Assembly (NCBI GenBank): GCA_030427255.1 | Contig: JAUHWY010000013.1 | Location: 1 to 64,000, forward strand | Reading direction: 5' to 3' | Source: Bacteroidia bacterium | GTDB taxonomy: Bacteria; Bacteroidota; Bacteroidia; CAIKAF01 | DNA length: 64,000 bases | Shown: positions 29,470 to 63,110 of the stretch, piece after piece | How the letters are laid out: every line of letters starts with the position of its first letter | How positions within the stretch are numbered: position 1 is the stretch's first letter | The notes under the pieces: model-generated | Databases searched by the model: none | Seen by the model: only the letters and a program-made list of their open reading frames with translations | What the model was told of the DNA's origin: nothing | Translations under genes and position numbers: made by a program

Positions 29470-31698
29470 ATGGTCAAGCACAATAATATCATCTGGGTAG
29501 TTGCTATGCTTACGGGGGCGAGCTTTCTGAATGTGAAGGCTCAAACTTGCAATATTAGTGTTACTACTGCCCAAAACCCGGTATGTAAAGGTACGGACGT
29601 AATTGTAAATGCGACTGGTGCCATACAAAACGCCGGATCCTATAACTTCGATTTCAATGGAGGTGGATTGCCGCCCGGATGGGGTACAACGGGGTCAAGT
29701 TTTTTTAATGCCCCTTGTTTGCCTAGTCCTGATGGTACTCCTTACTATTGGGCTGGGTCCGCAGGAACATTGACTCCGCAGCTTGAAACAGCTGATTTGG
29801 ATGTGTCCGGAGGGGGAACCATCGATTTTGAATTCGTAATGGAACAACAAGGAGGGGCACAACCTTGTGAGGGACCCGACTTGTCTACTGAAGGGTTTTC
29901 TGTTCAATATTCTACCAATGCCGGTGCAACTTGGGTTGATATTACCTACTTTTCTCCGGGTGGGTTTCAATTACCAGCGAACCCGGGGCCTCCTGCCACT
30001 GGTGTTGCCAATGGTCCGACCCCTTACACGGTTTGGAACACCGTTTCTATACCAATCCCCCCTGGAGCACAAACACCAAGTACTCGATTTCGTTGGATTC
30101 AAATATATTCCTCTGGATCTTGTTGCGATAACTGGGGGCTTGACAATATCGTAATTAATGCAGGGTCGCTATCTAACATGTCTTGGTCTACCGGTTTAAC
30201 CGGAACCCCGGGTCAAGCTGGTACAGATACATTATTTGCGCTACAAAACGATAGTTGTGTTATTGTAACTATTGCGGACACTTCCGGTCTTACCTGCACA
30301 GACACACTCTGTATTCAAGTGGTAGACCTTCCCACCGCTTTGGCTACTTTCCAAGACCCCAGCTGCGCCGGAGATGCAGTAACCATTCAGGGGTCGATTT
30401 CTACACCCGTTGGCAGTGTGGTGAATTGGGAATATGATTTCGATAACAACGGTACCTTCGAAACAACCAGTACAACAGGGGACGTTCCCTTCCCCAATCC
30501 CATTCCAGGAACTTATAATGTGCCCATGCGAATTACCAACAGTGGTGGATGCGAGCACGATACTGTTTTGGTACTTACTCGGAATCCAAGACCCAACATT
30601 AATCTTAATGCCAATCCTCTGAATATTTGTCAAGGACAGCCTTTGGATTTGATTACAACCACCGGAATTAATAACCCTCCCGGATTTACTACCACCGTTG
30701 ACTCCTTAATTTGGGATTTTACCAACGATGGATCTATAGATTCAAACACTTTAGTATTGGATACCCTAAATTATGCGTTTAGCATGAGTGGTTCCATTAC
30801 AGTTAAGGTTACGGCTATTTCAAGCGAAGGTTGTCGTAGGGAAGATTCCATTCAAGTTACGGTTCGACCAGGTCCCACTGCTGACTTTTCCGTGCAAGAT
30901 GTGTGTATTGGAGACCCCTTGCAACTCACCAATAACTCGGTAATTGATACCGGAGGAACCATAGCTTTGGCGCTTTGGACAGCAGATGGGCCCAGTGGCA
31001 ACCAAAGCGGCACAGGAACTAGTCCGAATTTTAGTTTTGATGCATCAGGGCAGCATACCATGTTCTTATTTTTAGAGTCTTCCACAGGTTGCTCAGATTC
31101 GGTGGAAGTTCCATTCGAAGTGTATCCTGAATTGCAAGCAGATTTTGAAAGTACTCCTATTTGCTTCAATGAAGTCCTCTTTGCCGATGCATCCTTCGGC
31201 GGCGAAGGTGAGTATAGTTATACTTGGACAATGGTTGGAAGCGACAACCAAGACACGGTTTATACAAACACAGATAGTTTTGTCCATATTTTTCCTAGCG
31301 ATAATGACACGCTAGTTACCTTGTTGGTTGAAGATGCCAATGGTTGTAGATCGGACACCACTAAATTGGTGAATGTGGTTGGTGAAATTCCATTGCCTAA
31401 TATGCCAAATGCCTTGGTATTGAACCCACAATTTGATGGAAACGACAAGTTAGACTTCACAACCTTTGCACCCGGTTTTAACCAGTGTTACGACTACGAG
31501 CTTACCATTTATAACCGTTGGGGAGTCTCTGTCTACGTGGCAGAAAATGTTGCCTCTGCTCCGGATTTAGATTGCTCAGATTGTTTTAAAGGACTTACCG
31601 AAGGTGATACGCAACTTTCCAAAGGAACGTATTACTGGACCATTACCGGAAACAGAGGTTTGGAGGCCAATGGAACAATTACAATTTTCGAGCGTTGA
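29470..31698 (+). CDS. Secreted reelin-like/PKD protein with type B-like sorting domain
   Basis: This 742-residue protein has a signal peptide (ending FLNVKAQ) and a reelin-like N-terminal domain (about 30-230; EGFSVQYSTNAG, VDITYFSPGG, SGSCCDNWGLDNIVI) nearly parallel to residues 22-230 of the protein at 7472-10105. Four or five degenerate PKD/Ig-like modules follow (WEYDFDNNG, LIWDFTNDGS, YTWTMVGSDN). The last ~95 residues (YELTIYNRWGVSVYVAENV, GTYYWTITGN) resemble the type B T9SS sorting domain but lack the usual PNxFSPNxDGxND opening (here PNALVLNPQFDGNDKLDF). It is probably exported with, or assisted by, the small protein upstream. A strong terminator follows. Confidence 0.87.
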   Translation: MVKHNNIIWVVAMLTGASFLNVKAQTCNISVTTAQNPVCKGTDVIVNATGAIQNAGSYNFDFNGGGLPPGWGTTGSSFFNAPCLPSPDGTPYYWAGSAGTLTPQLETADLDVSGGGTIDFEFVMEQQGGAQPCEGPDLSTEGFSVQYSTNAGATWVDITYFSPGGFQLPANPGPPATGVANGPTPYTVWNTVSIPIPPGAQTPSTRFRWIQIYSSGSCCDNWGLDNIVINAGSLSNMSWSTGLTGTPGQAGTDTLFALQNDSCVIVTIADTSGLTCTDTLCIQVVDLPTALATFQDPSCAGDAVTIQGSISTPVGSVVNWEYDFDNNGTFETTSTTGDVPFPNPIPGTYNVPMRITNSGGCEHDTVLVLTRNPRPNINLNANPLNICQGQPLDLITTTGINNPPGFTTTVDSLIWDFTNDGSIDSNTLVLDTLNYAFSMSGSITVKVTAISSEGCRREDSIQVTVRPGPTADFSVQDVCIGDPLQLTNNSVIDTGGTIALALWTADGPSGNQSGTGTSPNFSFDASGQHTMFLFLESSTGCSDSVEVPFEVYPELQADFESTPICFNEVLFADASFGGEGEYSYTWTMVGSDNQDTVYTNTDSFVHIFPSDNDTLVTLLVEDANGCRSDTTKLVNVVGEIPLPNMPNALVLNPQFDGNDKLDFTTFAPGFNQCYDYELTIYNRWGVSVYVAENVASAPDLDCSDCFKGLTEGDTQLSKGTYYWTITGNRGLEANGTITIFER

Positions 31699-31753: not shown

Positions 31754-31788
31754 TTATACCCAAGCTATTTTCTGCTTACAAGCCGGTG

Positions 31789-32191
31789 GAGCGGTCTTGC
31801 GTTTTCAAGACGAAGTTCCTGACCACAGCGTCAGGGCCGAAGTTCTTGACTCACAGATACTGACCGCAGCGTCAGTACACAGCGTCAGGGCCGAAGTTCT
31901 TGACTCACAGATACTGACCGCAGCGTCAGTACACAGCGTCAGGGCCGAAGTTCCTACCCAAAGTGTCAGGGCTTAAGTTCTTGACTAACAGATACTACCT
32001 CAGTATCAGTACGCAGCGCCAGTACGCAGCGTCAGTGCGCAGCGTCAGTGCGCAGCGTCAGTAAGAAGCGTCAGTAAGAAGCGTCAGCAGTAAGCGTCAG
32101 CAGTAAGCGTCAACACAAAGCGTCAACACAAAGCGTCAACACAAAGCGTCAAGGGAATGACTCACAGCCAGAACAGTAAGGCATCAACCGT
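31789..32191. repeat. TIR-array element, copy 4 (longest, two kinds of internal repeat)
   Basis: The head TGCGTTTTCAAGACGAAG, followed by CCTGACCACAGCGTCAGG, matches the head of the copy at 62460. The right end GCATCAACCGT (32181-32191) matches the terminal inverted repeat; the left one (about 31789-31799) is degenerate. Inside lie two full and one partial 54-base units (starting 31834, 31888, 31942) and then eleven 13-base units at 32008-32150. No long ORF fits; short frames across it are incidental. Confidence 0.7.
32008..32150. repeat. Array of eleven 13-bp units in identical runs
   Basis: Each 13-mer ends AGCGTC (one has AGCGCC) and has a seven-base variable part. Neighbours come in matching runs: AGTACGC twice, AGTGCGC twice, AGTAAGA twice, AGCAGTA twice and AACACAA three times. 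The period is not a multiple of three, so it is noncoding. Confidence 0.85.
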
Positions 32192-32327
32192 CTCAAAATG
32201 CCATGGGGCAGAACTTCACTTCCGAAAATGAAGATAGGTAGTTATACAGGGCTAATTTCCTGAAAAATTTAAGGGCCTAAAGGAGCAGAAAGGAATTCTG
32301 AAAAATGCAGTTAAGGGTTAGATTTCC

Positions 32328-32891
32328 TTAAGCATATGCATTTTTCATTAATTGGATTAGACTGCCACCGGATTGTTTATCCAGTTGAATGGTCATTCTA
32401 ATCTTTTTGTTTTGCTTTGAAATGAAGATACGCCTTCCTGAGTCCGGAATAATCTTTGGTCCGTGCAGTATAGGCTTCATTTCAGGTTTGAGGGCAATGG
32501 AAAGGTTCCCTTGAAGATTTTTACAAAAGAGCACGTACCGTTTGTTGTCTATTTGAATGGCGGCAGCATACTTCATTCTGTTTTTTTCCATGGTAATGGT
32601 TTCTACGCCATACCTGTTGGAAATGTAGCGAATAAGATTTGCAATGATGAGTACAGCCCACAGACTAAAGCCTAAAATGGCCGCCCATTGGGTATTCCAT
32701 CGGTAGGAAAGCACTAATGCAAGCACGAGAGGGAGACCAAGGCTCAACAAAAAACAAAACTGATACCATTCTCGTTTCAACTTGTTTTTGTCACCACGAT
32801 AAAAGGTTCTTATGTACACGCGAATCACGTTTCCATATTGGGTAAAATGAACTCTTTCGCCCAGTGTTTGAGTACACGTAGGTTGTGCCAT
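32328..32891 (-). CDS. Membrane protein of unknown function
   Basis: A 187-residue protein with two adjacent membrane helices (about residues 45-62 and 68-88). They separate a short cytoplasmic N-terminus from a beta-rich C-terminal domain (MKYAAAIQIDNKRYVLFC ... RRIFISKQNKKIRMTIQL). The layout resembles small PH-like membrane proteins, but I cannot assign a family. It stands alone on its strand. A TACATTTG box lies about 32 bases upstream. Downstream is the repeat at 31789-32191. No signs of transfer or truncation. Confidence 0.7.
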   Translation of the reverse strand: MAQPTCTQTLGERVHFTQYGNVIRVYIRTFYRGDKNKLKREWYQFCFLLSLGLPLVLALVLSYRWNTQWAAILGFSLWAVLIIANLIRYISNRYGVETITMEKNRMKYAAAIQIDNKRYVLFCKNLQGNLSIALKPEMKPILHGPKIIPDSGRRIFISKQNKKIRMTIQLDKQSGGSLIQLMKNAYA

Positions 32892-39030: not shown

Positions 39031-39131
39031 CCGCGCCCCTGATTGAAGGCGGGAGCGCCCGCAACCAAAAACCTGTAGCCACCTAGGCGAGGAGATTGAC
39101 GGCCACAGCCGGAAAGCCCCACAACCTAGGA
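39031..39131. repeat. Degenerate GC-rich palindrome H (possibly loop class 2)
   Basis: The stretch contains GGCCACAGCCGGAAAGCCC, which resembles the GACCACAGGAAGC loop of palindromes B and E, with only short pairing left (CCTAGG copies). It directly precedes TIR-array copy 1. Confidence 0.4.
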
Positions 39132-39132
39132 C

Positions 39133-39269
39133 ACCGTTGATGCTTTGTGTTTTCAAGGCAAATTAAGGCACGGACAAATCGAAAGACCGGAGTTTACTAA
39201 GGGTAAATGAGGCTCTTGCGATTTGGCCGTAACGCAAAGTTGCCGCCAGAATAGCAACGCATCAGCGGT
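39133..39269. repeat. TIR-array element, copy 1 (no internal units)
   Basis: Terminal inverted repeats ACCGTTGATGC (39133-39143) and GCATCAGCGGT (39259-39269; one mismatch). The interior lines up with copy 2 at 48159 along nearly its whole length (GGCAAATTAAGGC, GTTTACT, GTAAATGAGG, ATTTGGC, AACGCAAAGTTGCCGC, AGAATAGCA). There is no hairpin unit between head and body. Confidence 0.75.
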
Positions 39270-39374
39270 TTCCCTTGGAGGCTGCTGTTTTTGGTAAGGG
39301 CCGGAGACTGAAAGCAGGTTAAGGCGCCCAAAAAATCATCCACATTTTTTAGACTAGAGCTGCACCGAACTTGG

Positions 39375-48108: not shown

Positions 48109-48158
48109 TGGTCTTTTTTTTGTTTTTCTTACCATGGATAAGCCTTTACATTATGAAG

Positions 48159-48321
48159 CAGTTGATGCAGTGCGTTTTCAAGTTTATAACCCTGACCAAG
48201 GCGTCTGGGGCAAATTAAGGCGCAGACAAATGGAAAGGCCGCAGTTTACTGGTTGTAAATGAGGACCTTGAGATTTGGCTGCAACGCAAAGTTGCCGCTA
48301 GAATAGCATCGCATCAACGCT
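48159..48321. repeat. TIR-array element, copy 2 (one internal unit)
   Basis: Left end CAGTTGATGC (48159-48168), right end GCATCAACGCT (48311-48321). After GTGCGTTTTCAAG there is one degenerate hairpin unit (CCTGACCAAGGCGTCTGG), then a body that lines up with copy 1. It ends about 30 bases before the nhaD start. Confidence 0.75.
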
Positions 48322-48352
48322 CTCATTATCTTAGCGGTCAAATTTGGCAATT

Positions 48353-62403: not shown

Positions 62404-62459
62404 GTCTGCACCAAGCTAATCGCTCAATCCGGGGCCGAGATCCTTAAACACATTTAGAG

Positions 62460-62812
62460 ACCGTTGATGCGTGGTGTTTTCAAGACGTAGTCCCTGACCG
62501 AAGCGTCAGGGTTTATAATCCTGACCGAAGCGTTAGGGTTTATAATCCTTACCGAAGCGTCAGGGTTTATAATCCTGACCGCAGCCTCAGGGTTTATAAT
62601 CCTGACCGAAGCGTCAGGGTTTATAATCCTGACCGAAGCGTCAGGGTTTATAATCCTGACCGAAGCGTCAGGGTTTATAATGCTGACCGAAGCGTCAGGG
62701 TTTATAATCCTGACCGAAGCGTCAGGGTTTATAATGCTGACCGCAGCGTCAGGGTTTATAATCCTGACCGAAGCGTCAGGGGAAATATGCCGCCAGAAAA
62801 GCTTCTCGTCAA
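62460..62812. repeat. TIR-array element, copy 3 (eleven hairpin units)
   Basis: Left end ACCGTTGATGC (62460-62470), head GTGTTTTCAAGACGTAG. The tail GCCGCCAGAAAAGC is a degraded form of the tail of copies 1 and 2; the right terminal repeat is lost where the element abuts the stop codon of the next gene (62814). Confidence 0.7.
62493..62780. repeat. 27-bp tandem hairpin array (about 10.7 units)
   Basis: Unit: CCTGAC, CGAAGC, GTCAGG, then GTTTATAAT. Ten units of 27 bases start at 62493, 62520, 62547 and so on to 62736; an eleventh core begins at 62763. Each core can form a six-base hairpin. Single-base variants (GTTAGG, CCTTAC, AGCCTC, TGCTGAC) scatter through the array. Confidence 0.92.
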
Positions 62813-62813
62813 A

Positions 62814-63110
62814 TTAGAACCATAACCAAAATAGCACAACCCCAAGGGCTATGCCCACAAACAATAAACGAAACAGTTTGGCCCGGCGCTCTTCTCCATA
62901 ATCTACTTCATCTTGCGGGTCTATCCCTCCGGTCATTTTTTCGTACATGGTTTCTCCGTGCACCAAAGGATCTAATCTGCGCTCCATTTTGGCCCGCAAC
63001 CTACGCTTTTCCATATAGGCCTCATCCTTCCGTGGATCGTAATACATGGGTTTGTACCGAAATTTCCTGGGTTGCGGTTGCTTGAGTCCTTTAAATCCTA
63101 ATCCGGGCAT
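62814..63110 (-). CDS. Small membrane-anchored protein beside mutL
   Basis: A 98-residue protein with a basic, Arg/Lys/Pro-rich N-terminal part (QPRKFRYKPMYYDPRKDEAYMEKRRLRAKME) and a single C-terminal membrane helix (LFRLLFVGIALGVVLFWLWF). Similar short proteins next to mutL are common in Bacteroidota and have sometimes been mislabelled riboflavin synthase subunit beta. I would not assign that function, because no catalytic domain is present. Its stop codon directly follows TIR-array copy 3, which separates it from mutL. Role unknown. Confidence 0.7.
   Translation of the reverse strand: MPGLGFKGLKQPQPRKFRYKPMYYDPRKDEAYMEKRRLRAKMERRLDPLVHGETMYEKMTGGIDPQDEVDYGEERRAKLFRLLFVGIALGVVLFWLWF

Follow-up and report, generated by a model that had tools for sequence, protein, structure and literature searches.

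A 13-bp tandem array inside a worn copy of a palindromic MITE in a Bacteroidia bacterium

Introduction

ERIC, a MITE-like palindrome, contains insertions at fixed positions in its interior, and is similar in this to the element described here. BrickBuilt, a MITE of Porphyromonas gingivalis with MITE464/PgRS as a relative, carries tandem direct repeats of 23 or 41 nt whose number varies between strains, the 23-nt repeat being accompanied by a leader and a tail (PMC4596501). BrickBuilt combines GAGAC ends with an internal minisatellite and is the nearest known system to the present one. The BOX elements of Streptococcus pneumoniae have two end modules and, in the middle, tandem modules that vary in number (PMC3049150). 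In MSY1, a haploid human minisatellite, blocks of identical variants arise from small gains and losses together with boundary shifts (PMC2599865).

The DNA analyzed here (hereafter the window) comprises 64,000 nucleotides of a Bacteroidia bacterium (assembly GCA_030427255.1, contig JAUHWY010000013.1, positions 1 to 64,000 of the forward strand), and contains several copies of a dispersed element, one of which holds an array of 13-bp units. Like BrickBuilt, this element belongs to the Bacteroidota, is intergenic and non-coding, contains internal tandem repeats, and has GAGAC... inverted ends resembling those of the IS5-family elements ISPg1/ISPg4 (GAGACCATTGCA, GAGACTGTTGCA); beyond GAGAC.GTTG, however, the ends of the two differ. 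Unlike BrickBuilt, the present element is a full palindrome of 143 bp with palindromic modules of 25-28 bp at about four sites, makes a steady 5-bp target duplication, and has half-modules (13/14 bp) that amplify alone. Its units of 26-27, 54, 13, and 14 bp do not include the 23-nt unit of BrickBuilt, when compared by published repeat length. BOX is alike in being composite, in its target duplications, in its roughly one hundred copies, and in its extensive hairpin folding, but it is unrelated in sequence, belongs to another phylum, and has one central array where the present element has several module sites. MSY1 is an analogy for the block pattern only, since it is eukaryotic and its array is much longer. 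The element is thus a variant of MITEs with internal minisatellites, a design already known, in which the palindromic modules inside the element have multiplied at several sites, and also as halves; it offers a natural series for studying how a minisatellite originates from a hairpin.

Results and Discussion

The array occupies positions 32008-32150 (+ strand) and consists of eleven right-half-module units, a count and placement that the first-pass annotation of this DNA had given correctly. Read 5' to 3', the units are AGTACGC-AGCGCC, AGTACGC-AGCGTC, AGTGCGC (x2), AGTAAGA (x2), AGCAGTA (x2), and AACACAA (x3), each unit after the first having a seven-base variable part followed by AGCGTC. The same annotation had described identical pairs plus one triplet with a constant AGCGTC end; this holds for ten of the units and for run lengths of 2,2,2,2,3, provided that the first pair, whose members differ by one base (AGCGCC versus AGCGTC), is counted as a run.

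The array is not free-standing, but makes up the inside of one worn copy of this dispersed element (31782-32194, + strand). This copy is of the 'short' type, with the internal core missing, and both of its ends align to the family ends: the left end reads CCGTTGATGCG...TTGTGTTTTCAAGACGAAGTTCCTGACC, and the right end reads GCCAGAATAGCAACGCGTCAACGGTCTC. The right end of the element (GCCAGAACAGTAAGGCATCAACCGTCTC) occupies 32151-32194 (+ strand). No target duplication is visible at this copy, and its outer left end is worn. Leftward of the array are a decayed palindrome center, CTACCTCAGTATCAG (about 31995-32009, + strand; family form CTGACCGCAGCGTCAG), and then repeats of 27/54 bp that belong to this family as well. 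The latter are 27-bp modules at 31811-31985 (+ strand), of which two have grown into exact 54-bp repeats with the nested arrangement CTGAC..CTGAC..GTCAG..GTCAG (54-bp period, 2.4 copies, 100% match). Each 13-bp unit represents the right half of such a palindromic module; elsewhere in the family, it is the left half that is repeated, in units of 14 bp. None of these leftward features appeared in the earlier description, which presented the array without its larger context of a MITE carrying palindromic modules.

The copy lies in a convergent gap, with the gene for a type IX secretion (CHU_C) protein (29470-31698, + strand) on its left and a 187-aa ORF (32328-32891, - strand) on its right. Protein coding by the array was ruled out by its period of 13, a number not divisible by three, and by its intergenic position. 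The orthologous gap in the sister genome (window 31.7-32.3 kb versus L046:2386-3077) is occupied by different members of the element family, which prevents a unit-by-unit comparison of the array between the two species; for the same reason, the gap may represent a hot spot for insertion behind a terminator.

In its basic form, the element is a palindrome of 143 bp that has the ends GAGACYGTTGAYGCG and terminal inverted repeats (GAGACYGTTGAYGCGTTG) at both ends; its consensus is one long imperfect palindrome that folds into a single hairpin (-79 kcal/mol). Copies of this length have their ends in common. Amongst 15 sequences of exactly 143 bp, 14 match the consensus at 87-97% identity, while the remaining one (L060) is built differently and has 50% identity. 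The element is non-coding and short, ranging from 93 to 367 bp among 58 paired copies collected from stretches around the element copies; about 57 left and 60 right ends occur across the genome. Palindromic hairpin modules of 25-28 bp (CCTGACCGAAGCGTCAGG plus linker) are present at about four sites, which in larger copies correspond to consensus positions of about 27, 54, 85, and 109. The addition of modules at these sites results in a ladder of sizes with steps of ~26 bp (143, then near 169, 196, 221, 246, 274, 302, and 327), and in short-type elements the middle is missing, leaving modules alone between the ends. Besides the copy holding the array, the window contains a 143-bp basic copy (39130-39272), a 170-bp copy with one module (48155-48324; target ATTAT duplicated), and a short-type copy (62457-62820, right end approximate) with 11 modules of 27 bp at 62493-62781, all on the + strand. 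The last of these has only 2 modules in the same copy of the sister genome.

Exact 5-bp target duplications flank 18 of the 58 paired copies (0.19 expected), and the sister genome (Flavobacteriales bacterium M30B58, G004) has two clean empty sites, lacking the copies at 39130-39272 and 48155-48324 and retaining one copy of the target. The family therefore has the properties of MITEs, being short, non-coding, and present in many copies, with terminal inverted repeats, target duplications, and presence or absence at orthologous sites. The palindrome CTGACNNNAGCGTCAG (at most 1 mismatch) has 178 matches in its own genome compared with 1 for the reversed control, 147 in the sister genome, and 0-2 in the four remaining genomes from the genus. 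A scan for the left-end sequence with one genome per species (84,980 species, a collection that may leave out the own genome) gave a match only in M30B58. The MITE family is young and, as far as the searched genomes go, restricted to a pair of sister species within the Flavobacteriales. Two contigs of the draft, C48 at its end (L031) and C50 at its start (L035), both stop inside the same 54-bp array with matching sequences, and are therefore probably neighbors that were split by the element.

An IS5-family transposase is encoded once in the sister genome (L143:666-1967; NF033581 (IS5), E=9e-65), and its ORF lies between GAGACCGTTGACG and GAGACTGTTGACGCG, in inverted order, which are ends like those of the MITE. 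In the own genome, there are no matches to DDE_Tnp_1 and none to an intact IS5-family transposase; a 27-codon IS5-type remnant is found there, and the stretch around it has the same end sequence too. Taken together, the gene with the same ends and the remnant suggest that the MITE was likely moved by an IS5-family transposase supplied in trans.

Half-modules have multiplied in some copies and in both arms, the left half as 14-bp CTGACTCGAAGATG units and the right half as 13- or 14-bp units resembling GTCAGTACGTAGC, with 32008-32150 being a right-arm array. In the latter, the summed distance between neighbors is 11, compared with 30.2 in shuffles (p=0.0001), and the distance between units climbs smoothly with lag (1.0, 2.2, 3.0, 3.6, 4.0; Mantel r=0.67, p=0.0006). 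The same clustering of neighbors or growth of distance with lag is seen in four of five other arrays (Mantel test). Run lengths in other arrays are 4,1,1,6; 3,2,1,3; 1,1,3,2,2; and 2,3,2, and step-like blocks recur in the right arm of L140 (2,3,2, with one substitution per step), in the left arm of L032, and in L033 and L030. The pair pattern that the first-pass annotation had proposed looking for in other copies thus does not recur in its strict form, whereas step-like runs do.

The array is very probably a minisatellite that grew within an old copy of an IS5-type MITE by local tandem duplication and change. Inside some copies, a module or half-module would have been multiplied in tandem through slippage or through misaligned repair, aided by the hairpin, after which each unit would have been duplicated locally and then altered in its spacer, a sequence of events that leaves runs of one to six similar neighbors. 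The earlier suggestion of repeated duplication and subsequent change fits such locally copied units and their lag-dependent distances. The accompanying argument that random slippage could not give the pattern lacks support, because ordinary single-unit duplication with mutation yields blocks of identical neighbors. The even pairs would be one outcome of local duplication, for which templated growth is unnecessary, and the puzzling array gains an ordinary origin in local copying rather than a new mechanism. The evenness of the runs is much weaker evidence than the similarity of neighbors, and is a pattern chosen after the fact; all runs are of at least 2 units in 2.4% of compositions (11 units into 5 runs) and in 1.1% of arrays in a simulation of single-unit duplication, frequencies that make pure chance under the duplication model uncomfortable.

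Single-unit tandem duplication plus point change may also have been polar at the palindrome center. In its strong form, with units added only at the center through polymerase slippage on the hairpin and the oldest units outermost, this is unlikely, but if true each array would preserve, within a mobile element, the order in which its duplications followed one another. Growth from one end, also raised earlier, is hinted at by canonical units next to the center and diverged units farther out in 32008-32150, the left arms of L032 and L033, and the right arm of L140; against it, the right arm of L029 has no gradient (Mantel r=-0.20) and the left arm of L030 is canonical at both ends. The increase of unit distance with lag would be expected from polar growth, but unpolarized local duplication gives it too, and the rank correlation with distance from the innermost unit does not in itself reveal a direction because any locally copied array yields it. 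A simulation of end growth allowed any unit to mutate, which was unfair to a model of duplicating the newest unit and then changing it, and its result was set aside.

It is quite improbable that the 13-bp units are maintained binding sites or half-sites in which AGCGTC(A) is selected and the spacer is free. Changes between successive units do fall in the seven-base variable part in 10 of 11 cases and in AGCGTC in 1 (binomial, about p=0.01), and GTCAG is able to pair with CTGAC of the opposite arm. However, the family is limited to two species, its copy numbers are very variable, and its copies are decayed; moreover, the folding of the 13-bp array by itself does not exceed that of shuffles (z=-0.8), compared with z=-8.9 for the full-module array and z=-4.4 and -3.2 for the two-armed arrays L140 and L030. 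Creation of the unit order or number by the assembler is very improbable: the genome is a 57-contig draft in which C48 and C50 break off within a 54-bp array belonging to this family, but the units differ from one another, the array at 143 bp would be about the length of one ordinary read, and the sister genome, which was assembled separately, has sibling arrays with a like composition.

An Rfam search of the element copies in L066, L128, and L030 found no structured RNA family over the element; the only match was a tRNA gene (L030:2171-2245, - strand) close to a large element copy (L030:1754-2120). Single modules (CCTGACC..AGCGTCAGG) without element ends occur at L047, L070, L072, and L074, some of them in G+C-rich stretches, and could be solo modules or the source of the modules.
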